Origin: a virus
Length of the DNA stretch: 64,000 bases
IMG/VR virus record: IMGVR_UViG_3300034023_001204
Location: 31,111-95,110 of that record
Strand: one strand, 5' to 3'
Below are positions 2,776-60,340 of this stretch, one piece after another. The notes beneath the pieces were generated by a model, which had not been told where the DNA came from, did not search any database, and was given only the letters and a program-made list of their open reading frames with translations. Numbering within the stretch: the first letter of the stretch is position 1; the number at the start of each line of letters is the position of its first letter. The position numbers and the translations under genes are program-made.

Positions 2776-2815
2776 TCAAGTTTTATCATTTTTTCAAAAA
2801 AAGATTTAGTAAAAA

Positions 2816-2823
2816 TATATATA
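2816..2823 (+). promoter_or_regulatory. TATATATA box upstream of the 2846 gene
   Basis: TATATATA lies 22 nt before the ATG at 2846, in the divergent gap with gp46. It is palindromic and so could also serve the minus strand. It belongs to the recurrent late-type box family. Confidence 0.5.
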
Positions 2824-2845: not shown

Positions 2846-3112
2846 ATGAAGCATTTAAAGACTTACGAATCGATGATAGAGGATGATTACTCAGATTATG
2901 AGATGGGAGTAGATCCCTCTAATGAAATTGAGTATCATGATTTTCCATATGAACCTATGAATGTTCCCCTGTCACCTTCTGAAACCAGAGAAGAGAGAGC
3001 AAAGAGAATAAAAGATGAATTTCCTTATAATCCTATTAAAAAAGGGGAAGGTGATGGATTATCAAGAAAAGAGAGGGAAAAAGAAATTATAAAAAGATTT
3101 CCAGAAAAATAA
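2846..3112 (+). CDS. Small acidic protein with a capsid-targeting-like N-terminus
   Basis: Unrecognised 88-aa protein rich in Glu, Asp and Lys. It begins MKHLKTYESMIED, which resembles the short propeptide of T4 internal head proteins (MKTYQEFIAEA type). Closely similar starts occur at 53280, 53903 and 60211. Here the cleavage-like site is MIE rather than the exact (L/I)xE. The rest is charged with two DEFPYNP/DFPYEP-like segments and no predicted membrane segment. A TATATATA box precedes it. Packaging into the head is inferred from the N-terminus only. Confidence 0.65.
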   Translation: MKHLKTYESMIEDDYSDYEMGVDPSNEIEYHDFPYEPMNVPLSPSETREERAKRIKDEFPYNPIKKGEGDGLSRKEREKEIIKRFPEK

Positions 3113-13688: not shown

Positions 13689-14072
13689 ATGAGCATAAAA
13701 AAATGGGAAAAGTTTTTTGAAAAAACAATCACTGGTCAAGACGAACCAGAAGAAAAGACCTACGATGATCTTAGAGATGGTGTCAATAGACTTATTAAAA
13801 ACCAGTTAAAAAAAACTGATTTTACTAGTCGAAAAGAATTAGCTCTTGCTTATCTAAGAGATGAAGAAAAAAATCCAATTGAGGGTTTTATCAATGATTC
13901 GGATATCTATGAGTTTTATCTACAATATCGAGATGATATCGACGATTTATTATCGGATATGAGGTGGTTTGATGAAACACCTTCTGAGAATAATATTTTT
14001 TCTATTTATGATTTCATTATCATATCAACAAAAAAAGCTTTTCGTGAAATAATAGGAGTAATGGTCAAATGA
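13689..14072 (+). CDS. Hypothetical protein
   Basis: Unrecognised 127-aa soluble protein rich in Asp and Lys, with segments LRDGVNRLIKNQLKK and YRDDIDDLLSDMRWFDE that look helical. It begins a two-gene unit with the 69-aa gene that overlaps its stop by 4 nt (ATGA). Its own TATATAAG box suggests expression alongside the virion genes. No function assigned. Confidence 0.6.
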   Translation: MSIKKWEKFFEKTITGQDEPEEKTYDDLRDGVNRLIKNQLKKTDFTSRKELALAYLRDEEKNPIEGFINDSDIYEFYLQYRDDIDDLLSDMRWFDETPSENNIFSIYDFIIISTKKAFREIIGVMVK

Positions 14073-15838: not shown

Positions 15839-16144
15839 ATGACCAGGATAAAAAAGTTCTACGAAACTAGAGAAGAAATAAATAATGACACGATTCGTGA
15901 TATACTATCACAAATTAATGATATCATTGAAAAAACAGGAGGTATGAGAGATACTATACAAAACCTTTATAGTTTACTTGATAAATTTACCTCAGATTCT
16001 GAAGAATCCAACGATCAAATAGACGAATCAAGCATAGAACTTAATGCTACTGATAAAAAACTCGAAGAGGTTGAATCTAGTCTAACTTCAGTAACAGAAT
16101 ACTTAAACAACTATATCGAAGACGGTAGAAAATACTTATTTTAA
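15839..16144 (+). CDS. Coiled-coil hypothetical protein
   Basis: A 101-aa protein that is nearly all helical with heptad-like spacing (ILSQINDIIEKTGGMRDTIQNLYSLL and later SSIELNATDKKLEEV). No family recognised. It starts 7 nt after a TATATATA box, and its stop is 1 nt before the next gene, with which it is probably co-expressed. It may be a small structural or assembly factor; this is inference. Confidence 0.6.
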   Translation: MTRIKKFYETREEINNDTIRDILSQINDIIEKTGGMRDTIQNLYSLLDKFTSDSEESNDQIDESSIELNATDKKLEEVESSLTSVTEYLNNYIEDGRKYLF

Positions 16145-34501: not shown

Positions 34502-35722
34502 ATGAATATACAAACACTAGAAAACCACAAAAATAGAATGCCTATTTTTGATACAGACGAAAATGGGAGAAAAATAGATGCCTATCTATTAGAAGATGTA
34601 TTCGTAGCTAGTGATACAAGTATTTATCCAGGTATTATTCTTGGGTCTGGTGATAATTTATATAATCCTTATTTCGAGAAAGTTATGTCACTTGGTGATT
34701 ATTCGGAACAACCTATTGAGATCTCTACTGAGGTTAGATTAATATCGACATTTGAAGAACCTGTTTTTTATTTTGTTTATAACTCTGATAATTACTACCA
34801 TTTTGTTTACGACACACTACCCTATTTAATAACTTATAAGCAACTCAAAAAAGAAAACTTAGTTGAAAAGATATTAGTTAGTTTTCCCGGTAGCCGTGAT
34901 TTTTATCCCTTTTTTTGGGAGTTTTTGAAAATTCTTGAAATTGAGAAAGAAAATTTAGTTTCTCTAGATCGAGGTATATTATACAAAAAAATTTACATTT
35001 CAGATTCCTATACACATGGACACAATTCTAACTTACCACCCAGACAAGAAATTTTCAAATTATATGAACAAATAAAAAATGTTGTTAGTAATCTAGTTGA
35101 TATAAATTCTTATCCAAAAAAAATTTACATATCCAGAAGAAGCTGGATTCACGGTGACTACTCTAATATTGGAACAAATTATACTCAGAGAAGAAAACTT
35201 ATAATTGAGGATGAACTAGTTAAATTTTTAGAAAGTGAAGGATTTACTGAAGTTTTTACCGAAAAACTTTCTACCAACGACAAAATAGGAATGATGATGG
35301 GATCTGAAATGGTTATAGGCGCCATCGGTGGTGGATTATGTAACCTTTTGTTTGCTAACTCTGAATGTAAAAGTATATGCATATGTTCTCCACATTTTTT
35401 ATCAATAAATTCTAGATTTATATTTAGTTTTTCTGGTGGAACTACAAACTATTTCTTGAATTCTTTAAATACTGAATCTAACATATGGAAAAGATACATG
35501 AGAATAAAGTGGGGTAATAGAATTGGTGAGATTAAAGAAGTCCAAAAAAAATATTTAGTTGTTAATTTTTCGAAATCACCTATATCCGGATGGAACAACG
35601 ATGATACATTTGAAGAAATAAAAGTTCTCAAAGAGGATGCTACACCCTTAGACGAAGGTCTAAATTCTGAGTGGAGTTTTGATTTGGAGGATTTTATAAA
35701 ATTTTACAATAATTTAATTTGA
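34502..35722 (+). CDS. GT61-like (DUF563) glycosyltransferase
   Basis: A 406-aa protein of the GT61/DUF563 type. YNSDNYYHFVYDTLPYL (about 96-112) is the conserved N-terminal motif, KKIYISRRSWIHG (about 204-216) and VIGAIGGGLCNLLFANSE (about 273-290) are the donor-site segments. Family members transfer pentoses, GlcNAc or other sugars. The last 90 residues form an extra beta-rich part (YMRIKWGNRIGEIKEVQKK). Its stop overlaps the TTG start of the next gene. Confidence 0.8.
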   Translation: MNIQTLENHKNRMPIFDTDENGRKIDAYLLEDVFVASDTSIYPGIILGSGDNLYNPYFEKVMSLGDYSEQPIEISTEVRLISTFEEPVFYFVYNSDNYYHFVYDTLPYLITYKQLKKENLVEKILVSFPGSRDFYPFFWEFLKILEIEKENLVSLDRGILYKKIYISDSYTHGHNSNLPPRQEIFKLYEQIKNVVSNLVDINSYPKKIYISRRSWIHGDYSNIGTNYTQRRKLIIEDELVKFLESEGFTEVFTEKLSTNDKIGMMMGSEMVIGAIGGGLCNLLFANSECKSICICSPHFLSINSRFIFSFSGGTTNYFLNSLNTESNIWKRYMRIKWGNRIGEIKEVQKKYLVVNFSKSPISGWNNDDTFEEIKVLKEDATPLDEGLNSEWSFDLEDFIKFYNNLI

Positions 35723-36486
35723 AGAGAGGTATTTTTTTTACACATCAAGGTTGGACTGATATCGTAAATTGCTTAGGTTTAGTGGGTTATTATTCAAAAA
35801 GATACGCCCATTTAGATGTTTTAATTCGTGAGGATTCGAGACCATTTATAGATTTCTATCTGAGTCAATTTGATAACGTCTCGGCAATATATCAAAATAA
35901 AAAAGATCTCGATAATTACCACTTTAATATCCAGCTTGGATATGATATTCTTTTTCATGGGCAACACGATCGATTCAGGTCAGATCAATTCAGGTTTAGA
36001 TTTGACTCGAGTTCAGATTTCTTTGTGAAAAAATTTTATCAGTCATATGGTATTGATTTTAGAGCTAAAATAGAATACTTCTCTTTAAAAAGAGATTTAG
36101 AGTTAGAGAATACAACTTACCAAAATTTTATTGAATCTAAGAGGAGTGACTATATTCTGTATCACGAAGATGATCATACACCAGGTGGTGATACTGGAAT
36201 AAAACTTCCAAATCACGTAATCAATAATAAAAAGAGCATAAATTTGAACAAGATTACTACAAATTTTTTTAGTTTCATTAAAATTTTACAGAAATCCGAA
36301 CAAATTCATTTAGTTGATTCAGTCTGGGCTTCAATAATTTATCATCTAGATTGTAAATATAGATTATTTACTGATATTCCTATATTTATATATCCATTCA
36401 AATTAAGACAAGGTGGTTTATTAGATTATCAAACAGATCAAACTATTGAACCAATTCATCCTGAAAATTGGACAATAATAAAATAG
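35719..36486 (+). CDS. Glycosyltransferase-like paralogue A
   Basis: A 255-aa protein with a TTG start overlapping the upstream TGA. It begins with FFTHQGWTDIVNCLGLVGYYSKRY (about 5-28) and has IHLVDSVWASIIYHLDCKY (about 196-214) and PIHPENWTII at the end. The same pattern recurs in the genes at 36492 and 43003, so this is a family of three. Layout suggests a GT-B-like enzyme, but the activity is unknown. Confidence 0.65.
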   Translation: MKRGIFFTHQGWTDIVNCLGLVGYYSKRYAHLDVLIREDSRPFIDFYLSQFDNVSAIYQNKKDLDNYHFNIQLGYDILFHGQHDRFRSDQFRFRFDSSSDFFVKKFYQSYGIDFRAKIEYFSLKRDLELENTTYQNFIESKRSDYILYHEDDHTPGGDTGIKLPNHVINNKKSINLNKITTNFFSFIKILQKSEQIHLVDSVWASIIYHLDCKYRLFTDIPIFIYPFKLRQGGLLDYQTDQTIEPIHPENWTIIK

Positions 36487-36491
36487 ATACA

Positions 36492-37322
36492 ATGAAAAAA
36501 GGTATAATATATTCACATCAAGCTTGGACTGATACAATAAATCTACTATCTCTACCGGGATACTACGCTAAAAAATATGATCTCGTAAAAGTTACCGTAA
36601 TCGATAAAATGTATGAGAATGTTCAGTTCGCACTGAAGGATTTAGAAAATGTCGAAATTTTAAAAATTCTTGAATCTGATCACGATTTGGAGAAAACTGG
36701 TAAAAAAAGTTTGTATGATATCTGGCAAGAAAACGGTGTGGATAAAGAAGATTATGATTTACTTATCCACGGTTGGTCTGATTGGTATAGAAGACCAGAT
36801 GATAAATACAAAGACATTTATCCAAAACTATGGCAGACCGATCATCCAATCAAAGGTTTATATACACATTATGATATAGATTTTGTTGAAAAAATAAATT
36901 GCTTTAATATTACAAGAGATTTAGAGAAAGAAGAAGAAGTCTATAACGATTTTATTTCCAAAATTGGCACCGATAATTATATTCTAGTACATTCAGATCC
37001 AACCCGTAATTTTGGTGTTCCTTTACAAATACATAACTTTGATAATTCAAAAAAATATGTCAATTTACATGGACTGGCCGATAATATTTTTCACACAATA
37101 AAAATTTTAGAAAAATCAAGTGAAATACATTTTATAGATTCTGTTTGGGCGGCTTTTTGTTACTTGCTTGATGCTAAATATAGCTTGTTCAAATCTAAAC
37201 CGATATTTCTACATCCACTTATTAACCGTTTTGGAGGTCTAATTTTAGCACACAATTCTAATTTTCATAAACTAGAACCCATCGAGCTTAGCAATTGGAA
37301 AATAATAAATAATTTTAGATAA
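36492..37322 (+). CDS. Glycosyltransferase-like paralogue B
   Basis: A 276-aa protein of the same family as the gene at 35719. It has IIYSHQAWTDTINLLSLPGYYAKKY (about 4-28), IHFIDSVWAAFCYLLDAKY (about 215-233) and IELSNWKIINNF at the end. An upstream in-frame start at 36468 would add 8 codons inside the previous gene; the ATG at 36492 follows A-rich sequence and gives the same N-terminus as paralogue A, so it is preferred. Function unknown. Confidence 0.65.
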   Translation: MKKGIIYSHQAWTDTINLLSLPGYYAKKYDLVKVTVIDKMYENVQFALKDLENVEILKILESDHDLEKTGKKSLYDIWQENGVDKEDYDLLIHGWSDWYRRPDDKYKDIYPKLWQTDHPIKGLYTHYDIDFVEKINCFNITRDLEKEEEVYNDFISKIGTDNYILVHSDPTRNFGVPLQIHNFDNSKKYVNLHGLADNIFHTIKILEKSSEIHFIDSVWAAFCYLLDAKYSLFKSKPIFLHPLINRFGGLILAHNSNFHKLEPIELSNWKIINNFR

Positions 37323-37338
37323 AAATAACTTACAACAA

Positions 37339-38793
37339 ATGAGAGTAGCTCTTTTGATTTCTGGATATTTAAGAAGTTTCAAAATAAATATTCCGAATAT
37401 AAAAACTAAAATTTTAGACAAATTTGACAAAGTTGATATTTACATTCATATTACAAAAAATGAATCTACAGAAGATAAATACTTCAATTTGAATCATGAG
37501 TTGGAGGATTTGAAATGGCTCGAAGAAATCTTGAATCCCGTTTCTCTCATCTATGAGGATAACTACTATTTTTCAAAAAATAAAAAGAAAAACAATCTTT
37601 ATAATCATTGGATAAAATATTATAAATTAAATGAATTAAGAAAAATTAATGAAATAAAATTCAAATATGATCTTATTATAAAATACAGACCCGACTTGAA
37701 TATTATATCAGAGGATGTTTTTCCTGATAGCATAGAAAATAATTTAGTGTATATACCTTCTAAGAGTATAATTGATAAGTCAAAATTAGAAAATTCAGGT
37801 GACGACCATCTTTGTGATATTTTTGCTTTTGGTGATGGAGAATCCATGAACAAATATTTTGATATTTATCATAATCTAGATTCTCTAACCCAGAAAAACG
37901 GATACACACCAGAAACTATTTTGTTCAACTATTTTATGTCATCAAACATGCCTAAAAAGTTGGTAGATATGGAGTATAATGTGATACTTTCACTCTGTAA
38001 TGTTTTTGCTATTGCTGGTGATTCTGGTTCTGGTAAAACAACTTTGGGAAATATTCTAAAAACTTATTTTTCAAATTCATTTATGCTAGAATGTGATAGG
38101 TATCATAAGTGGGAGAGAGGCGACGATAATTGGAAAAAATTCACACATCTCAATCCAGAAGCTAACTATATTACAAAAATGAGTGATGATATTTTTGATC
38201 TAAAAATCGGAAAAAGTATTTACCATGTAAATTATGATCATTCAACAGGTAAATTTACAGAAAAACAAGAAATAGAAACATCAGATAACTTGATTGTTTG
38301 TGGTCTACATAGTCTCTTAGGTAGAAATGATGGGGTTTATGATCTAAAAATTTTTGTGGATACTGATACAAGATTGAAGCAACTTTGGAAAATCAAAAGA
38401 GATGTTCTTGAACGGGGATATACTAAAGAAAAAGTTCTTGAGCAGATCTCACTTAGAAAAGATGACTATTACAAATATGTTCTACCACAAAGAGACTTAT
38501 CGGATTTAATAATTAATTTTACTACTGAGGATCAGATTGATTTGAACTATCCTGAAATTTTACCGAATGTGATCTTGAATCTTTTTATACACAAAAAATA
38601 TACTCTTCTAGAAATCATAAGCTACTTTTCAGCTAGAAATATACCTTTCAAAATTGATTCTTCGGATAAAAATCATAATAAGGTAACTTTTCTACAATAT
38701 TACCCTATAAATGATGATGATAGATTCAATCTTGGTAATTATTATGATTACGTAGTGATTGTAATTCTTTTCCTCGGAAAAAAGATTGCATAA
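37339..38793 (+). CDS. Glycosyltransferase-like domain fused to a uridine kinase/phosphoribulokinase-like kinase
   Basis: A 484-aa two-part protein. Residues 1-215 look like a glycosyltransferase (VALLISGYLRSF, then KYDLIIKYRPDLNI near 105-120). From about 222 a P-loop kinase follows: AIAGDSGSGKTTLGNIL (about 225-241), LECDRYHKWERGDDNW (about 251-266), VNYDHSTGKF (about 296-305), LIVCGLHSLLG (about 316-326), KIFVDTDTRLKQLWKIKRD (about 333-351) and YVLPQRDLSDLII (about 374-386). This matches phosphoribulokinase/uridine kinase enzymes, although the usual EGLH is CGLH. The fusion may phosphorylate a sugar or nucleoside for the pathway. Substrate unknown. Confidence 0.75.
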   Translation: MRVALLISGYLRSFKINIPNIKTKILDKFDKVDIYIHITKNESTEDKYFNLNHELEDLKWLEEILNPVSLIYEDNYYFSKNKKKNNLYNHWIKYYKLNELRKINEIKFKYDLIIKYRPDLNIISEDVFPDSIENNLVYIPSKSIIDKSKLENSGDDHLCDIFAFGDGESMNKYFDIYHNLDSLTQKNGYTPETILFNYFMSSNMPKKLVDMEYNVILSLCNVFAIAGDSGSGKTTLGNILKTYFSNSFMLECDRYHKWERGDDNWKKFTHLNPEANYITKMSDDIFDLKIGKSIYHVNYDHSTGKFTEKQEIETSDNLIVCGLHSLLGRNDGVYDLKIFVDTDTRLKQLWKIKRDVLERGYTKEKVLEQISLRKDDYYKYVLPQRDLSDLIINFTTEDQIDLNYPEILPNVILNLFIHKKYTLLEIISYFSARNIPFKIDSSDKNHNKVTFLQYYPINDDDRFNLGNYYDYVVIVILFLGKKIA

Positions 38794-38794
38794 T

Positions 38795-39544
38795 ATGAAT
38801 TGGATTATTTATTCACATACTGAATATTTAGATATTCTAAATATTCAGACACATTATCTTCGAGATATATCAGATAAAAAATTATTTATCAACAAAACTA
38901 GCAATTTGCCTCAAAATATTACCGAGGGCTATAAAGAAATACTTTTTTATGATGATTCACTTCCCTATGCTTCTAGAATTCTATCCCTTAAAGAAACATC
39001 ATTCCAGGAAGATTACATTCTTTTAACTCACGATATTGATATTCTCGTATCTAAAGATGTAACTATGTTAAAAGGACTATTTGATTTTGCAAGAGATAAT
39101 AATTTAGATCGAATTGATCTTCAATATTATCATTCGAACTCATCAGATTATCATCTGAAGTGGAATGATTTAGATTTTTATCTTACAAAACAGAATGATC
39201 CAAATCATGCTATTTATAACGTGAATCCCTCTATCTGGAAGTTTGAGACGTTGATGGATATTATGTCAAATTTCCCAAACGAGAATTATAGAACAATCGA
39301 AAAATTCGAGACCCAAGTATATTCACAAAAATTCTCCATATACAAAATGTATTGCCCTACTCCGGTTGAATGTGGATATTTCAAATGTCTTCCTTTCTAT
39401 CAGTTTATACATATAACACACGGAGGTGGTCTTCTGCCACTCAGTAATAATGGTCTAGAAGGTTATTTACAGGATGAATATTTAAGAATTTGTCAAAATT
39501 TTAAATTTAATTCAAATAGAAGTTTCAGATTATCAAGATGGTAG
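38795..39544 (+). CDS. Glycosyltransferase-like protein
   Basis: A 249-aa protein starting MNWIIYSHTEYLDILNIQ. YILLTHDIDILVSKDV (about 78-93) is a DxD-type metal site, and FQEDYILL lies before it. The C-terminal part (FIHITHGGGLLPLSNNG, about 208-224) has a His-Gly-rich loop. A TTG at 38786 in the same frame overlaps the upstream stop; the ATG at 38795 is chosen. Family not clear. Its stop overlaps the aldolase start. Confidence 0.6.
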   Translation: MNWIIYSHTEYLDILNIQTHYLRDISDKKLFINKTSNLPQNITEGYKEILFYDDSLPYASRILSLKETSFQEDYILLTHDIDILVSKDVTMLKGLFDFARDNNLDRIDLQYYHSNSSDYHLKWNDLDFYLTKQNDPNHAIYNVNPSIWKFETLMDIMSNFPNENYRTIEKFETQVYSQKFSIYKMYCPTPVECGYFKCLPFYQFIHITHGGGLLPLSNNGLEGYLQDEYLRICQNFKFNSNRSFRLSRW

Positions 39545-40212
39545 ATAAAAATAATATTAAAACTAGTCTTTTGAAATTAGCAAAGAGTCATAGCCCGTTT
39601 GTTGTAGGATATGAGGGCAATGTATCGGCAAGATTTTCTGATGAAACTTTTTTGATTAAAGCTTCTGGTAGAAGGATGGAGACATTAAAAGATAAAGATT
39701 TAGTAGAATGCTCCTGGGATTGCATTCCAAGAAACTCAGAATTAAGAGCTAGTATGGAGGCACCTTTTCATTCTCTAATTTTGAGAAAAACAGGATGTAA
39801 CTTTGTGGCACATACACACCCATCACATACTATGCGAATTTTATGTAGAAACTTATCTTCTACTTTTGCTAACTATAGATTTTTTCCTGATCAAGTTGTT
39901 TTCAATGGAATGAAATCATGTTTGGTTAATTATTTTCACCCAGGTGATGAATTATGTCAAGCAATAGAAAAGGAATTTGATAAGTTTGTTGAGATACATA
40001 ATACAGATCCCAAAATAATCTTACTCAAGAATCACGGCATAATAACTTGGGGTAAAACAATTGAGGAATGTTTAGTGAAAACAGAAATTTGTGAAAAATC
40101 AGCTATGATATTCAAAGAAGATCACAAAAATATATGTTTTTTAGGCAAAGATGAAGTTAAGAAAATCTTAAATGATGAAAAAGAGAAATACAGACAAATC
40201 TTACAAAAATAA
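39538..40212 (+). CDS. Class II aldolase/adducin-family protein
   Basis: A 224-aa class II aldolase-like enzyme. GYEGNVSARF (about 24-33) and IKASGRRM (about 40-47) bind the phosphate, THTHP...H (from about 98) and LLKNHGIITWGKT (about 162-174) supply the metal-binding His residues. The family includes L-fuculose-phosphate and L-ribulose-phosphate enzymes and methylthioribulose dehydratase. The place in a glycan island with a GT10 fucosyltransferase makes a deoxysugar role possible, but the substrate is not readable. Confidence 0.85.
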   Translation: MVDKNNIKTSLLKLAKSHSPFVVGYEGNVSARFSDETFLIKASGRRMETLKDKDLVECSWDCIPRNSELRASMEAPFHSLILRKTGCNFVAHTHPSHTMRILCRNLSSTFANYRFFPDQVVFNGMKSCLVNYFHPGDELCQAIEKEFDKFVEIHNTDPKIILLKNHGIITWGKTIEECLVKTEICEKSAMIFKEDHKNICFLGKDEVKKILNDEKEKYRQILQK

Positions 40213-40226
40213 AATTAGATAAAATT

Positions 40227-40841
40227 ATGACAATAGAGGATTACGAAAAAATTTATTTCCAAAAAATTAAAAATAATTGCAAAATTGTTTTTGATATCGG
40301 TGTGGCAGATGATTCAATTTTCTTTGAAGAACCAGATATAATTTGCCACTACTTTGAACCTAACTATATCTCTCATTCTAACAGTATGAGAAGAAATATC
40401 AAGAACAAAGAATATTACTTGAATAATTTTGCCCTATCCGATAAACCATGTATACTCAAACTCTACAAAGAGGGTTCTCTTTATAGAAGAGAAAATATGT
40501 CAGATATTGTAACTCAAACAGAAACCGAAGTTAGAACGGGTTTGAATTACTGCCTCGAGAAAGGTATTGAATACATTGATTTTATAAAAATAGATGTTGA
40601 GGGATTTGAAACCAAAGTTTTAAGAGGTTTTGGAGATTTTTTATCCAAAACGAAGTATGTTCAATTTGAATATGGAATTGGTCTGAGAGAAGCAGGAAGC
40701 AATCTTGAAGAATTGGCATCAATTCTAGTAAATCATGGTTTCGATGATTTTCATATAAATGGTGAAGAAAAATTGGAAAACTTTGGTGATGACTGGAGAT
40801 ATTGTAATATTATGTGCTCTAATAAAAAATTAATTAGTTGA
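40227..40841 (+). CDS. FkbM-family methyltransferase
   Basis: A 204-aa SAM-dependent methyltransferase. VFDIGVADDSIFF (about 18-30) is motif I, and YIDFIKIDVEGFETKVLRGF (about 117-136) is the FkbM signature; YFEPNYISHS (about 44-53) fits the second SAM-binding strand. FkbM enzymes O-methylate sugars or polyketides, so this probably caps a sugar made by the neighbouring enzymes. It follows the aldolase with a 14-bp gap. Confidence 0.85.
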   Translation: MTIEDYEKIYFQKIKNNCKIVFDIGVADDSIFFEEPDIICHYFEPNYISHSNSMRRNIKNKEYYLNNFALSDKPCILKLYKEGSLYRRENMSDIVTQTETEVRTGLNYCLEKGIEYIDFIKIDVEGFETKVLRGFGDFLSKTKYVQFEYGIGLREAGSNLEELASILVNHGFDDFHINGEEKLENFGDDWRYCNIMCSNKKLIS

Positions 40842-40844
40842 AAT

Positions 40845-41150
40845 ATGAATAAAAAAGTAATCTATGTCGATATTGATGAAACAATATGTATAACCCCTGA
40901 TAATCCAAGAGTTTATGAACAGTCGACTCCAATTAGAGAAAACATAAATAAAATAAACGATCTGTATGATAAAGGTAATAGGATTGTATATTGGACTGCT
41001 AGAGGCAGTAGATCTGGGATAGATTGGTATGATCTAACAAAGAAACAACTTGTTGAGTGGGGAGCTAAGCACCACGATTTGAGAGTCGATAAACCATACT
41101 ACGACATATTTATTGATGATAAAAATTTGAGAATCGAAGAGATTCAATAA
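40845..41150 (+). CDS. Small HAD-like phosphatase
   Basis: A 101-aa HAD-superfamily protein. IYVDIDETICIT (about 6-17) has the nucleophile Asp pair, RIVYWTARGSRSG (about 46-58) gives motif II, and YYDIFIDDKNLR (about 85-96) gives the closing acids. No cap domain is present. Small HADs of this type are often found in capsule and LPS gene clusters and may remove a phosphate from a sugar. It starts 3 nt after the FkbM gene. Confidence 0.8.
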   Translation: MNKKVIYVDIDETICITPDNPRVYEQSTPIRENINKINDLYDKGNRIVYWTARGSRSGIDWYDLTKKQLVEWGAKHHDLRVDKPYYDIFIDDKNLRIEEIQ

Positions 41151-41163
41151 AAAAAACAAGAAT

Positions 41164-41793
41164 ATGACTATTTTTTTAATAAATGTCGGAAATACAGTAT
41201 ATGATAAATATACTTTACCTCTTATTGAAAAGTTGTGTGATTTTAACAACATTAATTTATTTATTCTTGAACAAAATATTTCTCAAAACATATACGGATT
41301 ACATCCGTCTTGGTTGAAGTTGTTTTGTCATAGATTAGTCAATGATGACTTTATACTATGTTGGGATTTGGATTTAGTTCCAACTAAATTGTACAATCTT
41401 GAAAAAATGTTCAATAAAGAATTTTTAAATATGACTTATGATAGAGGTTTCACCGAGGAAAACTTTACTTTCAATAGTAAGTTTAAGTACAATTGTGGAT
41501 TGATAGGAATACCAAAAAAATATGAATCTTTTTTTGAGAATATCTATTATAAATATGGTTCTACGGCTATATATCCTTCATATGAACAATACTATGTTAA
41601 TGATGAAATATATGATAACAGTTTGGAAATCAATGTAGTAGATTCGGTGTTAAACTCTATGTATTATGGTGATGAGATATTTTCTGAGAATGTATTAAAC
41701 ATCCATTACACCTACAAAATTAGTTCAAATCAACATCGTGTAGATCTTACTAAGTTCCACTTTAAAAAATTTAAAGAATTTTTCAATTTATGA
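41164..41793 (+). CDS. Glycosyltransferase-like protein
   Basis: A 209-aa GT-A-like protein. The acidic site is FILCWDLDLVPTKLY (about 58-72), flanked by LHPSWLKLF (about 43-51) and NCGLIGIPKKYESFF (about 104-118). Layout resembles GT8-like or similar capsule enzymes. The stop overlaps the next start by 4 bp. Substrate unknown. Confidence 0.65.
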   Translation: MTIFLINVGNTVYDKYTLPLIEKLCDFNNINLFILEQNISQNIYGLHPSWLKLFCHRLVNDDFILCWDLDLVPTKLYNLEKMFNKEFLNMTYDRGFTEENFTFNSKFKYNCGLIGIPKKYESFFENIYYKYGSTAIYPSYEQYYVNDEIYDNSLEINVVDSVLNSMYYGDEIFSENVLNIHYTYKISSNQHRVDLTKFHFKKFKEFFNL

Positions 41794-42344
41794 AGACATT
41801 CAAAACAAGAGAAGATCTTCTCATCTCATTAGGTAAAGGTCTATCGGTAGCCGAAATAGGAGTATTCAAAGGAGATTTTTCGAAATTTATCTCCGAATAT
41901 CTGGAACCAAAAGAACTTTTTTTGGTCGATTTATTCGAGGGTTATGTCGGATCCGGAGATAAAGATGGAAACAATATGACATACACTTGGTTAGAACAAG
42001 AAATGATATCTCTGAAGTCTTATTTTGAAAATCACAAAAACACATACATCATAAAGAATACAAGCCGAGACTTTTTGAATTCGATTGAAGATAACAAGTT
42101 GGATTTGATATACATAGATGCGGATCACGATTATAAAAGTGTTAGAGAGGATTTAGAATTGTCTTTTAATAAAGTAAAAATAGGAGGACATATATGTGGT
42201 CATGACTATGTTGCTCCAAGATTCGAAGGTGTGGTAAGAGCTGTTGATGAATTTTGTTTAGAAAAAAAACTGACTATCAACTATATTTCTGAAGATGGAT
42301 GCCCAACTTATTGCATAAAAAAAAATAAAGTATGGTATGTATGA
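41790..42344 (+). CDS. Class I SAM methyltransferase (Methyltransf_24-like)
   Basis: A 184-aa methyltransferase. SVAEIGVFKGDFSKFI (about 19-34) is the SAM-binding motif I, LFLVDLFEGY (about 43-52) motif II, and LIYIDADHDYKSVREDLELSF (about 107-127) with GGHICGHDY (about 133-141) the macrocin/TylF-like core with an Asp-His metal-type site. It probably methylates a sugar. Overlaps the upstream gene by 4 bp. Confidence 0.82.
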   Translation: MKTFKTREDLLISLGKGLSVAEIGVFKGDFSKFISEYLEPKELFLVDLFEGYVGSGDKDGNNMTYTWLEQEMISLKSYFENHKNTYIIKNTSRDFLNSIEDNKLDLIYIDADHDYKSVREDLELSFNKVKIGGHICGHDYVAPRFEGVVRAVDEFCLEKKLTINYISEDGCPTYCIKKNKVWYV

Positions 42345-42435
42345 TCATAGAGACGAGGACGATATAAATCTTCACGAAGATTTTTATCACGGATATTTTG
42401 CAAAGCATCAACAGGGGAAAATTCGATCAGACTAA
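42337..42435 (+). CDS. Possible mini-ORF, 32 aa, rich in Asp and His
   Basis: ATG at 42337 overlaps the methyltransferase stop and runs to TAA at 42433-42435. The product is MYDHRDEDDINLHED, then FYHGYFAKHQQG and IRSD. It could be a real small peptide, a decayed gene end, or chance. It fills most of the 164-bp gap before 42509; the rest of the gap is A/T-rich with a TATATAT stretch right before the next ATG. Confidence 0.3.
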   Translation: MYDHRDEDDINLHEDFYHGYFAKHQQGKIRSD

Positions 42436-42508
42436 ATTAAAAAAAATAGATTCGTCAAGTTTGCAGAATTTCTCCATTCAAAAAGATTAAAACAATATAC
42501 AAATATAT

Positions 42509-43006
42509 ATGAAACTCATATCACATCGCGGGAATATTTCCGGCAGAGAACCAGAAAGAGAAAATCAACCGTCTTTTATAGATAATGCGATCTCTAAAGG
42601 ATATGATGTTGAGATAGATTTTAGGACACACGATGGCAAACTTTATCTTGGTCATGATGGACCTGACTACCTTGTTGATTTGAGTTGGATTTTTGAGAAA
42701 AAAGATTTTCTATGGATTCATTGTAAAGATTTAGAATCAGCTCAAAAACTTTTTATATTATCGAGAGATGTACCAGGGCTTAAATATTTCTGTCATAATG
42801 AAGATGATTTTACACTTGTTAGTTCTGGTCATATCTGGGTTCACTACAACCCATTAGATAAATTCGATGATTATTTAGATAGGAGTTGTATAATTCCACT
42901 GCTTGATTTAGAATTGATAGGAAAATATTACAATCCGAATGTTTTTGGAATTTGTAGTGATTATGTGGCTGATATTTCAAAATTAAACAATTCAAAAATA
43001 GAATGA
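42509..43006 (+). CDS. Glycerophosphodiester phosphodiesterase-like protein
   Basis: A 165-aa GDPD-type TIM-barrel protein. LISHRGNISGREPERENQPS (about 3-22) has the family HRG start and the E-N site, GYDVEIDFRTHDGKLYLGHDG (about 31-51) has the metal-site E-x-D and HD. The protein is shorter than full GDPD (usually 230-300 aa), as in several capsule-cluster versions. It could cleave a glycerol-phosphate or similar diester in a surface polymer. TATATATG includes its start codon. Confidence 0.8.
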   Translation: MKLISHRGNISGREPERENQPSFIDNAISKGYDVEIDFRTHDGKLYLGHDGPDYLVDLSWIFEKKDFLWIHCKDLESAQKLFILSRDVPGLKYFCHNEDDFTLVSSGHIWVHYNPLDKFDDYLDRSCIIPLLDLELIGKYYNPNVFGICSDYVADISKLNNSKIE

Positions 43007-43833
43007 AGATAAATAGGATGAATAATACAATTTTACTTCATCATCTAGGATATGCTGATCTGTTTTCCTGTAATGGTTTAGTGAACTATTACTCTGAAAC
43101 AAGAGAAAATATAAAAATTTTAGTTGACACACACGATAAGAAAGAAATTTTAGATTATATGTATTCCCATCTTCCTCAAGTTTCCTGCGAACTTCCTGAG
43201 ATTTCTATTGAAAAAAATTTGGATGAAACATGTTTAAAGTGTCATACATCAAATCAAATGGGAAAATGTCCTAGAGGTTATGAGTATTGTAGTTATGTCA
43301 ACTGGTCAAAATATCAACATGACGAGATTATAAAAGTAGGAGCTTTTCATGAATACAATTCCTGGGAAAACTTTAGAAAAAACGAAGAAAACATCTCATT
43401 TTCACACTCTTTTTACACCTATAATAAAATTGATATAGAAAATAGAATTAACAAATTTGCCATAAATAGAAATAAGTTAAGGGAAGAACAAATATTTCAA
43501 AACTACACCGAACTTAATGGAAGTGAGTATTCTGTAATTCATGAGGATCACAAAAGACACATCATCATCGATCGGATATATATAAAAACAGAGAATATTT
43601 ATAATCTGGATAGCAAATCAAAAATATTTCTAGACCAAATCGGAATTATAGAAAATGCTAGTGAACTTCATTTCATAGACTCGAGTTATTCTGTTTTAAT
43701 ATATTTTTTATCGTTTTATTCTGAGAAAATAAAGAATATACCGAAATATTTACATTTATATACTAGAAATTCTAGGGATTATAATATCTATAAAAACCCC
43801 ACTCCTGAAAATTGGTATAATATTTATGAATAA
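43003..43833 (+). CDS. Glycosyltransferase-like paralogue C
   Basis: A 276-aa protein related to those at 35719 and 36492: HHLGYADLFSCNGLVNYYSE (about 13-32), then LHFIDSSYSVLIYFLSFYS (about 224-242), and TPENWYNIYE at the end. Unlike the other two it has a Cys cluster (CLKCHTSNQMGKCPRGYEYC, about 77-96) that may bind zinc. It overlaps its neighbours by 4 and 8 bp. Function unknown. Confidence 0.65.
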   Translation: MKINRMNNTILLHHLGYADLFSCNGLVNYYSETRENIKILVDTHDKKEILDYMYSHLPQVSCELPEISIEKNLDETCLKCHTSNQMGKCPRGYEYCSYVNWSKYQHDEIIKVGAFHEYNSWENFRKNEENISFSHSFYTYNKIDIENRINKFAINRNKLREEQIFQNYTELNGSEYSVIHEDHKRHIIIDRIYIKTENIYNLDSKSKIFLDQIGIIENASELHFIDSSYSVLIYFLSFYSEKIKNIPKYLHLYTRNSRDYNIYKNPTPENWYNIYE

Positions 43834-44743
43834 TATATTTTGGTCTAATTCACCTGGATCCGGTTTGTGTGATAGACTAACGGATATTTCGTTGATGGCA
43901 ACTTTTTCGAGACTCTTAGGTGCAAAACTATTCCTGAAATGGGAAATTTTTGATTATTATGGAAATGGTACATATGTCACCAGATTACACTCAAATCAAC
44001 CGGGAAATGAAATCATTATAAAAAAGTATCACGACAATAGATATCACGATTATCTTTACGAAAACTTCATAGAATATTTTTACTTACCTACTGATATAGA
44101 AATTTTTACTCAACAAAGTGGAGTTCATAGTTTGAATTTTGACTATATTTTTAGTGACTATCTCGGTGGTATATATTCGGCAGTAACTTTTTGGAAAAAA
44201 TATGCACAAAATATCTGTAACCTAGAAATATTTATAGAAAAATATAATCAAGTTCTCAAAGAATTCAGACCTACAGAAAATCTTTCAAAAATTACAAATA
44301 CGATTGAAAAACCGGATCTTGTAATACATTTACGAAGAACTGATAAGGTTGTAGTGAACCCGGATATTTTTGCAACAGACAATCTAGAATCGCTCAACTT
44401 AACAACAATAGAAGCTATAGACGCGTATATTAAAAAGAATGGGCCTGAAACTAAGATTTATTTCTCTTCTGACGATAGTGACGAGAAACTCTTTTTTCAA
44501 AATAAATACAAGAACTATTTAATTAAAAAAAGTGACGAAAATTATGGTTTTATCAACACTTATGTTGATATGTTTCTTCTCTCTAGCGCTAGAACTATAA
44601 TTCTTTCTCAGATGCACTCTAATTTTTCTATATTTTGCTCTTTAATAGGAAGCGGAAATCTCATATACCTTTATGAAGATTGTCCTTTAGTGGAAATGCA
44701 ATATCCAAAATTCAAAAATTTCAAATTATTCACACAAATCTAA
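43826..44743 (+). CDS. Fucosyltransferase-like protein (HxRRxD motif)
   Basis: A 305-aa protein. SNSPGSGLCDRLTDI (about 7-21) is a GDP-sugar-type start, LVIHLRRTDKV (about 166-176) is the HxRRxD donor motif of GT11/GT23/GT65-type fucosyltransferases, and TYVDMFLLSSARTIILSQMHSNFSIF (about 247-272) fits the late donor-binding region. With the GT10 gene this would be a second fucosyl-type enzyme in the island. The family number is not certain. Confidence 0.72.
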   Translation: MNNIFWSNSPGSGLCDRLTDISLMATFSRLLGAKLFLKWEIFDYYGNGTYVTRLHSNQPGNEIIIKKYHDNRYHDYLYENFIEYFYLPTDIEIFTQQSGVHSLNFDYIFSDYLGGIYSAVTFWKKYAQNICNLEIFIEKYNQVLKEFRPTENLSKITNTIEKPDLVIHLRRTDKVVVNPDIFATDNLESLNLTTIEAIDAYIKKNGPETKIYFSSDDSDEKLFFQNKYKNYLIKKSDENYGFINTYVDMFLLSSARTIILSQMHSNFSIFCSLIGSGNLIYLYEDCPLVEMQYPKFKNFKLFTQI

Positions 44744-44746
44744 TTT

Positions 44747-46321
44747 ATGGAAAATATTAAATTAATAATACCAATGTCTGGACTTGGTAAGAGATTCTCT
44801 TCAGCAGGTTATACATCTCCAAAACCTTTGATTGAAGTTGATGGATACCCAATTATTAAATTTGTAGTTGATTTGTTTCCGGGAGTTGAAGATATCACTT
44901 TCATTTGTAGAAAAGAACATTTGGAACAAACTAACATGAGAGAAATTTTATTGAAAATTAGACCCTCCGCACAAATATTTTCGGTTGAAGATTTGTATAG
45001 AAAGGGACCAGTCGATGCTGTTTTCCAAATTAAAGATCATATCGATGATAACAAAGAGATTATTGTAAGCTATTGTGATTATGGAACTCGATGGGATTTT
45101 TACGCTTTCTTAGAAGATTGTAAAAGAAGAAACCTTGATGGTTCTATAGCTTGTTATACTGGATTTCACCCACATATGCTTGGTAGTGATAACTACGCTT
45201 TTTGTAAAGAAAATTTGGAAACCGGTCTTGTTGAAAAGATAAAAGAAAAAGAACCTTTCACAGATAACAAAATGAATGAATGGGCTTCTAATGGCACATA
45301 CTATTTTAGATCGGGAAAGACCCTAAAGAAGTATTTCGAAAAACTTATTGAGAGAGATATTCATCTAGGTGGTGAATATTATGTTAGTTTAGTTTATAAT
45401 TTACTAATAGAAGACAATCTCAGAGTTGGTGTATATCCGATTGAAAAAATGCTTCAATGGGGAACACCCTACGATTTGGAAATATATCTTGGTTGGTCTA
45501 ATTATTTCAAAAATCTCAAAAAATACACACAACACTATACACATACGGATGATACTACACTTATTCTACCTATGGCCGGGAGGGGTTCTAGATTTTCAAA
45601 AATCGGATATGATATACCAAAGCCTTTGATACCGGTTGATGGAAAACCAATGATTGTATCCGCAGTTGAGTGCTTACCTAGAACATCCAACAAAATATTT
45701 ATCTGTCAGAAAGAACATCTAGAATATTTTGAAATAGATCAAATAATATCACAGAATTACCCAGAGTCTCAATTTTCGGTAATTGATTATATCACACAGG
45801 GTCAAGCAATAACTTGTAAAATTGGTTTAGATGAATTCGATATCGATCCTGAAAAACCAATTCTCATCTCTGCTTGTGATAATGGTGTTGTGTATGACAG
45901 TCAAGAATATCAAAGACTTGTTGAGGACCCGAATGTCGATATTATCGTTTGGTCTTTTAGAGGTAACGCAACAAGTGTAAATAATCCAGATATGTATGCT
46001 TGGTTAGATGTGGATGATGATGGAAATATTCAATATGTATCCTGTAAAAAATTCATTTATGAAAATCCACTAACAACACACGCAATCATCGGAACTATGT
46101 ATTTTAGAAAAGCTAAATATTTTCTGGAGGGATTATATCAGAATATGGATTCTCGAATAACAACTAATGGAGAATATTATGTCGATGATGTTCTTAACAG
46201 AAATATTGAAAATGGTCTTTGTGTAAAAGTTTTTGAATCCAAAAATTATATTTGCTGGGGAACACCAGATGATCTACTTACTTATCAATATTGGAGTGAG
46301 TATTTTTGTAATATAATCTAG
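44747..46321 (+). CDS. Tandem sugar nucleotidyltransferase (two domains)
   Basis: A 524-aa protein made of two similar halves. Domain 1 begins IIPMSGLGKRFSSAGYTSPKPLI (about 6-28) and domain 2 LILPMAGRGSRFSKIGYDIPKPL (about 270-292). Each has the G-x-G-x-RF loop and the KPL lysine of NTP transferases such as glucose-1-phosphate thymidylyltransferases. Each half also ends with a WGTP-type motif (QWGTPYDL near 242-249, CWGTPDDLL near 504-512). The duplication probably gives two active sites or one regulatory half. It would supply activated sugars. Confidence 0.85.
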   Translation: MENIKLIIPMSGLGKRFSSAGYTSPKPLIEVDGYPIIKFVVDLFPGVEDITFICRKEHLEQTNMREILLKIRPSAQIFSVEDLYRKGPVDAVFQIKDHIDDNKEIIVSYCDYGTRWDFYAFLEDCKRRNLDGSIACYTGFHPHMLGSDNYAFCKENLETGLVEKIKEKEPFTDNKMNEWASNGTYYFRSGKTLKKYFEKLIERDIHLGGEYYVSLVYNLLIEDNLRVGVYPIEKMLQWGTPYDLEIYLGWSNYFKNLKKYTQHYTHTDDTTLILPMAGRGSRFSKIGYDIPKPLIPVDGKPMIVSAVECLPRTSNKIFICQKEHLEYFEIDQIISQNYPESQFSVIDYITQGQAITCKIGLDEFDIDPEKPILISACDNGVVYDSQEYQRLVEDPNVDIIVWSFRGNATSVNNPDMYAWLDVDDDGNIQYVSCKKFIYENPLTTHAIIGTMYFRKAKYFLEGLYQNMDSRITTNGEYYVDDVLNRNIENGLCVKVFESKNYICWGTPDDLLTYQYWSEYFCNII

Positions 46322-47133
46322 ATTAGTGGGTAATCTTTTACGAAGATTTTGTTGAAATTTTTTTCATAATTCATTTCTGGTTGGCCATCACCTGTATGGC
46401 AAAAAAATTCTGATTTCCACATCAATTCTTCATCTCTGTTACAAATGTAGAAAAGTGGATTTCTATCTCCTGATGTATTGCTGTCGTGAAAGGTGTCGAT
46501 GTAATAATCAATTTGTTTATAGATATCATAGTTTATGTGCAGAGTAAAATCATGATTGAGCCATATTTTTGAGCTTGCTAGTTCACTTTTGAATTTAGAA
46601 CAAACATACATGATCAAGTCACTCGGTCTTGAACGTGTTTTTTCACTAGGAATAATATTTTTTTTATACTGGGGTAGATGTGAAGGAAATGGTGAAACTA
46701 TGTGCTCATGTCCCCCTATATAACATATAAATGGACAAACGATTTTTTTCTCCGGAAAATGAATTATGTCTAACAATTTGGATTTCAAAACCAAATCTAT
46801 TCTTATAAAAAAATAAAAGTCACTACCGTATCTTGATACTAATTGAGGAACTTTTTTCGATAATTTAATAAATCCTATGGGTTTTTCAATCAAGATTATT
46901 AGTGGATTAAAATCTTTGTACCAGCTAAATAAAAAATCAGAAAACTCATTTTTGTAGGTGATTATGATTAGACATATATCAATTTCCGATAAAAGTGATT
47001 TTAGAAAATTGATCTGAGATTGTGATGCCACAAATTGCTTTTCAAGAATATTATTTTTAGTGAAACTTTCATAGCTATTATATGAATTTCTGAAACTTCC
47101 TCCCCAAATACAAAAAACACCCTTTTTTTTCAT
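46318..47133 (-). CDS. Glycosyltransferase-like protein on the opposite strand
   Basis: A 271-aa protein convergent with the nucleotidyltransferase (4-bp overlap). FCIWGGSFRNSYNS (about 6-19) and DFYFFIRIDLVLKSKLL (about 125-141) resemble the N-terminal part of the kinase-fusion protein at 37339 (VALLISGYLRSF, then IIKYRPDLNI). A putative glycosyltransferase; the family is not clear. It ends the glycan island. Confidence 0.6.
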   Translation of the reverse strand: MKKKGVFCIWGGSFRNSYNSYESFTKNNILEKQFVASQSQINFLKSLLSEIDICLIIITYKNEFSDFLFSWYKDFNPLIILIEKPIGFIKLSKKVPQLVSRYGSDFYFFIRIDLVLKSKLLDIIHFPEKKIVCPFICYIGGHEHIVSPFPSHLPQYKKNIIPSEKTRSRPSDLIMYVCSKFKSELASSKIWLNHDFTLHINYDIYKQIDYYIDTFHDSNTSGDRNPLFYICNRDEELMWKSEFFCHTGDGQPEMNYEKNFNKIFVKDYPLI

Positions 47134-53022: not shown

Positions 53023-53280
53023 TTAATCTTCGCTAGAAAAAGGTTTGATATGCTTTAAATTCCAGTTTTGATTAAATTTTTTACTTTTCTTCTGGTAGTC
53101 TTGATAGCTTTCAATACCAGTATCCACTGGGTTTCTAATCCACATGATGTTTGATCCTTCTTTGTTCATATCTGATATTTTATCACCCACATCGGTTCCA
53201 TTCATAATTTTTCTAAGTTTTTTTAGTTGATCAACTGTTGATTGTTGTGGTAGAGACTCGAAAAGTTTTATATGTTTCAT
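53023..53280 (-). CDS. Small protein with a capsid-targeting-like N-terminus
   Basis: An 85-aa protein beginning MKHIKLFESLPQQ. LFE-S fits the (L/I)xE cleavage consensus of T4 head proteinase. The body is Lys/Gln-rich (QLKKLRKIMNGTDVGDKISDMN) with no known domain. A start at 53316 would overlap the upstream gene; the ATG at 53280 is chosen because TATATAAGATA precedes it. Packaging into the head is inferred. Confidence 0.65.
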   Translation of the reverse strand: MKHIKLFESLPQQSTVDQLKKLRKIMNGTDVGDKISDMNKEGSNIMWIRNPVDTGIESYQDYQKKSKKFNQNWNLKHIKPFSSED

Positions 53281-53283
53281 TAT

Positions 53284-53291
53284 CTTATATA
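53284..53291 (-). promoter_or_regulatory. TATATAAG box before the 53280 gene
   Basis: TATATAAG then ATA then ATG, the same arrangement as before bS21 and at 13689. It confirms the shorter start. Confidence 0.5.
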
Positions 53292-53903
53292 TTATAAATA
53301 TCCACCGATAGACCATAGATCGTCTATCTTGAGAAGTATATTCTCGGGTAAAATCTCCCCTAGTTTTTCTTGTTTTTTCTTAAAGGGTGGTGTATTCCAG
53401 GCTTTACTTACATAATAGCAGAAGTTGGAATCTTTGTCTATTTGTTTTTTAATAACCTCTGGTGTGAAAAAGTGATGGGTTAGAATTAGTTCGGCATCTC
53501 CTGGTTTTTCTCTTTTGATCCACCTTAAAAATCCACTTAAGTTATATACATCGTGATAATTTCCAAATATGAAATTACCGTCTATTCTTTTGGGGGCACC
53601 TTCGAAAGACACTAAAGGATTTTCTTCACACCAAAAACTCAAATACACTATTTCTGGAGAACCCTCGAGTGTTCTAAGATTATTCCCTTTACAAGTGAAA
53701 TGTCCACCAATCTTACCGAATTTAAGTCCCAAAAAATTGTCAAGATTCTGATCATCACAATTAAAACCTCCCGTAACATCAATAAATCCTGTTTCTGGAT
53801 CTACTGACCAAGGACCACTGGCGCTTCTTGTTAAAAAATCTATTTGATCTTGTGTTAGTGAACTACTATTCTCAAATAATTTATAATTTCGTATATATCT
53901 CAT
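53292..53903 (-). CDS. Leucine-rich-repeat-like protein with a capsid-targeting-like N-terminus
   Basis: A 203-aa protein beginning MRYIRNYKLFENSS, where LFE-N fits the (L/I)xE proteinase consensus. Residues about 40-130 have phage-type leucine-rich repeats, each with a pattern like FxCxxNxLxxLEGxP: FTCKGNNLRTLEGSPEIV and FWCEENPLVSFEGAPKRI. The C-terminal part is helical. Repeats of this kind bind proteins. It lies just upstream of the 85-aa gene with a similar N-terminus. Confidence 0.7.
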   Translation of the reverse strand: MRYIRNYKLFENSSSLTQDQIDFLTRSASGPWSVDPETGFIDVTGGFNCDDQNLDNFLGLKFGKIGGHFTCKGNNLRTLEGSPEIVYLSFWCEENPLVSFEGAPKRIDGNFIFGNYHDVYNLSGFLRWIKREKPGDAELILTHHFFTPEVIKKQIDKDSNFCYYVSKAWNTPPFKKKQEKLGEILPENILLKIDDLWSIGGYL

Positions 53904-53907
53904 AATT

Positions 53908-53914
53908 CTATATA
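53908..53914 (-). promoter_or_regulatory. TATATAG box before the 53903 gene
   Basis: TATATAG, AATT, then ATG. Same type and spacing as the other late-type boxes. Confidence 0.5.
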
Positions 53915-54023
53915 TTATATTGAAAAGATTATTTGTAGCCTTCTAACCATGAGTTGGTAATTACACCCACAAAAAGTGGATAATTAATTTGGAATGAATG
54001 GTTGAAAATTGAATTTTTTTCCT

Positions 54024-59650: not shown

Positions 59651-60211
59651 TTACAGGTTGCCTAGGTTTTCTTGAAAAACTTTTATTTTTTCTACTAAAT
59701 TAGCAAGTGTCTCTACTGGATCCTCAACAGTTACACCACCTACTGAAATGCGTCCTGGTAAACTATCAGGAAATCTATCAGGATATACCTTTTTTAGTTG
59801 TTCTAGTGCTTTTTGTACTCCTAATTTTCTTCTTTCATTTTTGTATTCTGGGCCAGGATAGTCTTTATACTTGCATACTACGAAAGTTATTACATTAACA
59901 TCTTTCACCTTACGATTTCCTCCTAAACTTTTTGCAAAGTATACCGGAATCCGCATTTTTCCCATGTAGACATGGCCCATGCTAGGGTTATTGACCTCTG
60001 AAATAGAAATGTTCGGAGAATACATACTATCCCAATCTTGGATCTTTTCTATTAATTCAAAATATCTATTAATTACTCCTCCGTGTTGTTGAATGATAGT
60101 ATTTAATTCCATACATTTAGAAAAAAAACCTTCGTAAGTTTCCTCAATGTTAGGATTGAATTTAGCTAAATCTTCTTTGATTAGATTATTAAATTTTTTT
60201 AAGTGTTTCAT
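59651..60211 (-). CDS. Protein with a capsid-targeting-like N-terminus
   Basis: A 186-aa protein beginning MKHLKKFNNLIKEDL. IKE-D fits the (L/I)xE proteinase consensus of T4 head maturation. The body is alpha/beta (GHVYMGKMRIPVYF, then VITFVVCKYKDYPGPEY) and has no known family. The C-terminal end (VEKIKVFQENLGNL) is helical. It is isolated on the minus strand and preceded by TATATA and A-runs. Packaging into the head is inferred. Confidence 0.62.
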   Translation of the reverse strand: MKHLKKFNNLIKEDLAKFNPNIEETYEGFFSKCMELNTIIQQHGGVINRYFELIEKIQDWDSMYSPNISISEVNNPSMGHVYMGKMRIPVYFAKSLGGNRKVKDVNVITFVVCKYKDYPGPEYKNERRKLGVQKALEQLKKVYPDRFPDSLPGRISVGGVTVEDPVETLANLVEKIKVFQENLGNL

Positions 60212-60227: not shown

Positions 60228-60234
60228 TATATAT
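60228..60234 (-). promoter_or_regulatory. TATATA-type box before the 60211 gene
   Basis: ATATATA on the minus strand followed by A-rich sequence, about 17 nt before the ATG at 60211. The gap 60212-60362 holds only this box, the next one at 60341 and AT-rich sequence. Confidence 0.4.
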
Positions 60235-60340
60235 TAAATTTTTTTTTTCATTTTTCAACTTTTTGGATTCTTTTTTGTCAAATTGAAAAAAGAAAATAAG
60301 GACTTCTGTGTAGTTCATATTTAAGTAGTTAAATTTTTAA

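Follow-up and report, generated by a model that had tools for sequence, protein, structure and literature searches.

Short tags of about ten residues at the N-termini of otherwise unrelated phage proteins are most probably capsid-targeting propeptides of the T4 type which have expanded in one clade of huge phages. What is new here is the scale of T4 capsid targeting; the kind is already known. A search of the open-access literature by tag strings and by topic brought up no paper describing these tags. The starting point was a stretch of 64,000 bases, the window, taken from a virus record of 95,110 bp. Over its full length the window is identical to positions 39,292-103,291, reversed, of the contig IMGVR_UViG_3300042359_000853 (227,583 bp; G001 hereafter).

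A preliminary description of this DNA had singled out four proteins with like starts at 2846, 53280, 53903 and 60211, and all four are present at these positions (arrows mark presumed cuts). The first, of 88 aa (2846..3112, plus strand), starts MKHLKTYESMIED and has the tag/junction MKHLKTYESMIEDD; its body is without relatives in the 14 phage proteomes compared. The second, of 85 aa (53023..53280, minus strand), starts MKHIKLFESLP and reads MKHIKLFE↓SLPQQSTVDQLKKLRK. Its longest ORF begins at 53316, and 53280 is an internal ATG 13 nt past a box. The third, of 203 aa (53292..53903, minus strand), starts MRYIRNYKLFENS and reads MRYIRNYKLFE↓NSSS; the leucine-rich-repeat-like character ascribed to one of the proteins is recognizable in its middle part. 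Over 64-80 residues it is related to two larger proteins (in G015 and LR756502) and to a third, tagged one (in G015). The fourth, of 186 aa (59651..60211, minus strand), starts MKHLKKFNNLIKED, reads MKHLKKFNNLIKE↓D and has no PHROG family, solely a sub-threshold Pfam match and no relative in the 14 proteomes. The assertion that the bodies are unrelated holds: two of the four are without a relative and two have different relatives (14 phage proteomes, E 1e-3). So does the count of (L/I)xE sites in three of four proteins (LFE, LFE and IKE); the protein at 2846 lacks the strict site and offers only TYE or MIE. The upstream boxes reported for all four genes are in place as AATATATA, 32, 13, 13 and 24 nt ahead of the respective ATGs, i.e., at 2814..2821 (plus strand) and, on the minus strand, at 53286..53293 (read directly), 53909..53916 and 60228..60235.

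A fifth, diverged tagged protein of 101 aa (15839..16144, plus strand; MTRIKKFYE↓T) was absent from that description. Its relatives start MKKIRKFNES (LR756502; 28% identity, E 2.6e-9) and MKIRKFNED (G032). A possible further protein with a T4-type tag (127 aa, 13689..14072, plus strand; MSIKKWEKFFE↓K), with AATATATA 12 nt upstream, is a weaker case. Searches of IMG/VR for relatives of two window proteins and of an ART-like protein returned only their own contig, and PDB sequence searches with two tagged proteins and a protease profile gave nothing useful.

Judged by its head and tail genes, G001 is a T4-type phage. With PHROGs its head module comprises a portal protein (phrog_213, E 1.9e-46), a major head protein (phrog_138, E 4.7e-23) and a head maturation protease (phrog_207, E 3.7e-29), and a tail sheath was likewise found. 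A scan for a gp21-like proteinase had been advised at the outset, and the phrog_207 match is its positive outcome. According to the major capsid protein (MCP) the nearest named relatives are LR745206 (69.1%), LR756502 (65.8%), LR756504 (54.6%) and LR756501 (54.2%), all uncultured megaphages. The G001 protease is 74.0% identical to that of LR745206 over 66% of the query and 66.3% identical to that of LR756502 over the whole query; ranked by identity, the gp23-type capsid protein and the protease are both closest to LR756502/LR745206. All four megaphages have the same protease-scaffold protein as G001, and all carry tags. LR745206 and LR756502 have sizes of 634-642 kb, LR756501 of 735 kb. From their size and source we assign the four to the Mahaphage clade (Al-Shayeb et al. 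2020), which is described as holding genomes of >634 kb with Bacteroidetes as predicted hosts (PMC7162821); LR756502 and LR745206 are named in PMC9723777. G001 is presumably a fragment of a genome about as large as those of its megaphage relatives. Elsewhere (W01, 315773-316270) an ORF of ~165 aa resembles MCP residues 9-145 (28%).

How frequent the tag is, and how strictly N-terminal, was evaluated with the loose motif M[KR]x[ILVMF][KRQ]x[FY]. LR756502 had been picked by capsid and protease likeness, independent of the tag; here the motif stands at 95 of 1017 ORF starts vs 4 of 3073 internal methionines (p 1.6e-53). The corresponding figures for G001 are 7 of 255 and 3 of 804 (p 2.7e-3). A set of ten contigs consisted of G001 and nine IMG/VR contigs picked for holding MKHLKKFN. 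In this set the motif, at the first codon or at any ATG among the first 25 codons, opens 219 of 3001 ORFs, compared with a single one for the reversed motif and 12 of 8858 internal methionines. Counting one start per ORF, enrichment is seen in 10 of 10 contigs, with p from 2.7e-3 (G001) to 1.7e-24 (G032). The motif scan which the preliminary description had recommended is thus positive in LR756502, in G001 and in the ten-contig set. The 219 tagged proteins fall into 165 groups when the sequences after residue 12 are compared (blastp, E 1e-3), i.e., an N-terminal peptide of ~10 residues is common to otherwise unrelated proteins. Further tag sequences are MKHLKKFNES and MKYLKTYKLFES.

A DNA pattern for MKHLKKFN retrieved 64 matches in 60 IMG/VR stretches; the control, in which the seven residues after M were reversed, retrieved 1 stretch. 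An in-frame stop lies at most 29 codons upstream in 63 of the 64 matches, and in the remaining one the locus ends first. Many matches are near-identical copies across samples, and the downstream protein differs between groups. Bacterial and archaeal genomes, searched with the pattern plus a following E, contained one match, located inside a longer, NrdR-like-looking ORF and not at a start. A looser pattern including T4-type tags fits 158 ORFs of LR756502, where about 23 are expected by chance. One might argue that M-K starts are common in AT-rich genomes and that the loose motif also matches 2 of 281 ORFs in T4, so that four lysine-rich N-termini resemble each other by chance. Given the N-terminal enrichment and the reversed controls this has next to no probability.

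The tag is conserved at the level of protein, not of DNA: in LR756502 90 of 93 tag DNAs (codons 2-7) are distinct while residues 2-7 are kept. This observation bears on two explanations which dispense with a function of the peptide. According to the first, the shared start is an expression element in which the early codons and the AATATATA box aid initiation. AT-rich early codons generally help initiation, and the box is indeed enriched and sits at preferred distances. In LR756502 it lies ≤40 nt upstream in 47 of 93 tagged vs 141 of 842 other genes (OR 5.1, p 3e-12), and enrichment at tagged genes reaches p < 0.05 in 9 of 11 genomes; the exceptions are G027, where the association breaks down (2 of 23), and G021, where it lacks significance (p 0.46). 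Yet the synonymous sites vary while the residues persist, and the box also stands before many G001 genes that lack the peptide, which makes this explanation very improbable. According to the second, a mobile cassette of promoter and start was spread by recombination and carries a functionless peptide. T4-type phages shuffle regulatory cassettes, and tandem arrays of tagged genes suggest duplication. On the other hand, the spacing between box and ATG varies, the tag DNA is not conserved, and relatives keep the pattern despite changed residues; we give the cassette even less credence. Because of the counts and the synonymous variation both chance likeness and a pure DNA cassette are disfavoured.

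The box itself may bear on the time of expression. In G001 AATATATA lies ≤60 nt from the start in 5 of 5 head and tail genes named by PHROGs and in 1 of 15 other genes, a comparison in which both gene lists were chosen after seeing the box list and some of the 15 labels are by our own reading. The distance between AATATATA and ATG has two preferred ranges, about 12-15 and 26-33 nt (e.g., the boxes at 53909-53916 and 60228-60235 of the window), and of 48 tagged LR756502 genes with a box ≤60 nt away 42 have it at 11-17 nt. The two distances suggest a late promoter from which both leaderless and leadered mRNAs arise.

Phage T4 is described as packing three internal proteins and Alt. According to the T4 record, MKTYQEFIAEA is the start of both ipII and ipIII, and MKTFKEFTSTTT that of ipI. 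The first 10 residues of IPIII are enough, with residues 4 and 7 chiefly responsible for targeting and residues 8 and 10 for processing (PMC9026906, section 2.6). The N-termini of all 830 LR756502 ORFs of ≥80 aa, taken with no motif selection, display excesses of L4 (z 12), I4 (z 7), Y7 (z 11), F7 (z 9) and F10 (z 12). K2, H3/Y3 and K5 are also in excess, E11 more weakly so, and from position 13 on z is ≤2.5. For F or Y at positions 7 and 10, z is below 2 in both T4 and PTm1. As far as residue counts can tell, the conserved tag positions 4 and 7 are those which mainly target T4 IPIII. Among the 165 tag representatives conservation drops after residue 10; here the selection fixes positions 2, 4, 5 and 7, but not 3 and 8-10. 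The megaphage tags thus share with the tags of T4 IPI, IPII and IPIII and with the Alt propeptide that a short N-terminal peptide, hydrophobic or aromatic at 4 and 7, is placed on unrelated proteins, that a glutamate stands near the peptide end as in the T4 capsid targeting sequence, and that the genome encodes a gp21-type protease. They differ in that the MKYLK form has K/R at 5 and often an aromatic residue at 10, and in that (L/I)xE is not universal. Moreover, tens to about a hundred tagged genes in megaphages compare with a handful in T4, and the megaphage set is known from sequence alone.

Most sequence tests support the likeness to the T4 propeptide which the preliminary description had proposed. 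The supporting tests concern positions 4 and 7, the T4-like tags of the related LR756501, the head protease of T4 type in G001, the box common to tagged and head genes, and the xE junction seen in one protein family. One test went the other way: when two matrices were trained on megaphage N-termini, neither placed T4 IPI-III in the top 16 of 273 T4 ORFs. The highest-ranking ORFs were different ones, and gp61.1 came third with one of the matrices. The tagged bodies are slightly more acidic than other proteins (-0.038 vs -0.016 per residue); the internal proteins of T4 are described as basic. A broader parallel exists with the ejection proteins of SPN3US and phiKZ, described as large phages which pack many head proteins cut after glutamate by prohead proteases. 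A difference is that in phiKZ the DNA pattern for MKxLKxF has 1 match, the same as the control.

A more serious alternative is that the tag localizes or docks proteins not to the head core but to another structure of the phage, be it the tail, a replication site, a membrane or a compartment which the phage makes. It would accommodate the conservation of residue 10 past the presumed cut and the positions of the tagged genes in LR756502, which are spread genome-wide, with arrays at 10-32 kb, away from the head genes near 222-229 kb. We nevertheless consider docking elsewhere rather unlikely, considering the likeness at the very positions that target T4 IPIII, the presence of a T4-type protease, and T4-type tags in LR756501 and in MA9V-2, in the latter partly among head genes.

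The pattern ATGAARNNNHTNAARNNNTWYRAN has 62 matches in LR756502, 53 in LR745206, 31 in LR756504, 14 in LR756500 and 5 in G001. It has 0-2 matches each in LR756501, PTm1, Lak-A2, pT24, PAU, MA9V-2, MaF61, RM378, T4 and phiKZ, and 0-1 each in Munch, 121Q, PA5oct, P-SSM2, KVP40 and GAP32; the reversed control gives ≤1 per strand. In the cultured relative PTm1 tags are at background. Unlike the other megaphages, LR756501 uses the T4-type form, and its single MKYLK match equals the control. With the T4-type DNA pattern ATGAN{5,8}TWYNNNNNNTTYNTNNNNGAR this genome has 14 matches (control 1). Each of the 14 coincides with, or lies close to, the opening of an ORF of 112-443 aa, with ≤28 open codons upstream and, in two cases, an ATG further up. 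The tags read MKTFNQFINE, MKKFNSFINE or MIKTFDEFINE, compared with MKTYQEFIAE in T4. The T4-type pattern does no better than the control in G001 (0 vs 3) and LR756502 (6 vs 5).

The cultured Chryseobacterium phage MA9V-2 (OR513085) has 6 matches to the T4-type pattern (control 0). Four are starts of annotated coding sequences (162897, 166687, 216401, 217850); two of these are among head genes, and one tagged coding sequence is flanked by the genes for capsid assembly and the prohead protease. The four tags read MKNFFSFINE, MKTFTYFINE, MKTFFTFVNE and MKNFFQFINE. A fifth match (214643) was not counted, since its reading frame is not that of the annotated gene and stays open for 23 codons only. 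In T4 itself the pattern has 4 matches, of which 3 are ipII, ipIII and gp61.1. With its start MKTFKEFIKED, the hypothetical protein gp61.1 (NC_000866, 18966-19130) is possibly packaged as well. As a separate observation, G001 16322-17611 and 170286-171707 together with many paralogues constitute a family common to huge phages; some have a T4-type start, MIKKYNDFILES, others lack one, and several end in DnaJ-like CxxCxGxG repeats.

The head protease deserves closer inspection. H74 and S129 of the G001 enzyme, which we take to be the catalytic residues, are invariant in five homologues. The protease is fused to its own scaffold (L078:9772-11901, equal to G001 189772-191901), likewise in L081, L084, L090 and L093. 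The scaffold part is a run of 14-residue repeats, most of which hold (L/I/V)AE↓N as predicted cuts; it looks as if built to be chopped. In the capsid protein a cut is predicted at SINE↓NAY, residue 44; T4 gp23 is described as losing 65 residues. The seven proteomes in which the MCP is complete retain this candidate site as (I/M)(N/H)E↓N, and so do LR745206 and LR756504. PF03420 alone proved too weak as a protease detector, and PHROGs were better: on the G001 protease PF03420 gave E 8.4e-5, below the Pfam cut-off, and at E 0.01 it matched 14 of 50 records with MKHLKKFN, none over the cut-off, the records being 21-508 kb in size and many surely fragments. Five of ten fully read contigs were without a full protease or MCP at E 1e-5, and G003 had only a scaffold-repeat match.

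Do the tags carry cleavage sites? The rule for gp21 is given as L/I-X-E (PMC9026906). A site [LIVFMY]xE is present within residues 6-17 in 123 of 165 tags, a figure inflated because F/Y at 7 is fixed by the motif selection, vs 30-44 of 142-165 in later windows and 548 of 1907 at the same place in untagged proteins. The first glutamate of the 165 tags is at position 8 in 74, at 9 in 40, at 11 in 21 and at 12 in 14. The 74 E8 tags have T at P3 in 36 cases and L or I in 21, and their conservation extends to residue 10, past the presumed cut. The 40 E9 tags have F at P3 in 28 and N at P2 in 28, and the 21 E11 tags have L or I at P3 in 17, F at P2 in 18 and S next in 12. Many tags are without a strict (L/I)xE site, i.e., the rule fits only part of them. 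Relatives of the body of protein 53023-53280 occur in four further phages, and the module reads xE↓SLPxQ in 5 of 5. It follows the tag in the window protein (LFE) and in LR756501 (VFE); in LR756502 (KNE), G032 (TNE) and G003 (VNE) it lies within longer proteins or forms their end. Since P3 is K or T in 2 of 5, the glutamate may simply belong to the body.

If the tags are T4-type propeptides, one may picture the following sequence of events. A tagged protein would be made in late infection. Its first 7-10 residues, rich in K, hydrophobic at 4, aromatic at 7 and often also at 10, would bind to the scaffold core of the prohead, and the core-bound protein would be enclosed in the prohead. The head protease, fused to its own scaffold, would then cut after the glutamate and free the body inside the head, and the freed body would enter the next host along with the DNA. 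Attachment to the core, packaging, cutting and delivery into the host, like any part played in host take-over, are what we infer. A search for the virion proteome of a close relative found none.

What do the tags carry? We drew 150 tagged representatives from 163 groups with a usable reference; they match 35 Pfam families, compared with 82 for 150 length-matched other ORFs. In LR756502 85 tagged proteins (of 95; the remainder are short or lie across a piece boundary) match 13 Pfam families and 85 untagged ones 55. Among the matches listed, untagged proteins have SmpB, NAD synthase, DnaJ and Clp protease, and tagged proteins have single domains such as NUDIX, SET, GNAT, HNH, lysozyme, PQ-loop and ART-PolyVal. 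PPK2, Pterin_4a and NFACT-R are also among the tagged matches listed; PPK2 and Pterin_4a look metabolic. An RNase H match probably represents a chance tag (MKIIQIYTDG). Going by these domain matches the cargo seems rarely to be housekeeping.

The ART-PolyVal protein (PF18760, 49.2 bits at a cut-off of 31.2) is from G006 and starts MKHLKKFNE. Alt of T4 is described as a packaged ADP-ribosyltransferase, and for polyvalent proteins both packaging and injection have been predicted (PMC5512222). The tagged set resembles the polyvalent proteins in that one member is an ART-PolyVal protein; it is unlike them in that most scanned tagged proteins match no Pfam family (in LR756502 at most 13 families for 85 proteins). 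The tagged G001 protein 320-1699 has a YHGSD-like motif, identified by eye only, and a BLASTP E of 0.026 to the ART-PolyVal protein. It had no Pfam or PHROG match, and a structure model of its ART-like domain (pLDDT 39) was not interpretable.

We incline to the view that about a tenth of the genes in a clade of the largest known phages is cargo, i.e., unrelated, mostly unknown proteins which have a removable N-terminal address in common, enter the head by it and are injected together. If the tags act like those of T4, a megaphage would hand its host tens to a hundred proteins in a single delivery, which would help to explain the purpose of the unknown genes of megaphages. The tag would then be a readable marker of the set of injected effectors in uncultured phages and turn effector discovery into a text search. 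With MA9V-2, which is cultured and has four T4-type tags at gene starts, the idea is directly testable.

Two other features of the window may be mentioned. Long ORFs with TPTPT-type repeats at 3126-5243 and 20933-24907 are, inspected by eye, probably fibres or adhesins. A block of genes at about 30800-47100 resembles, again by eye only, glycosyltransferase and sugar genes.
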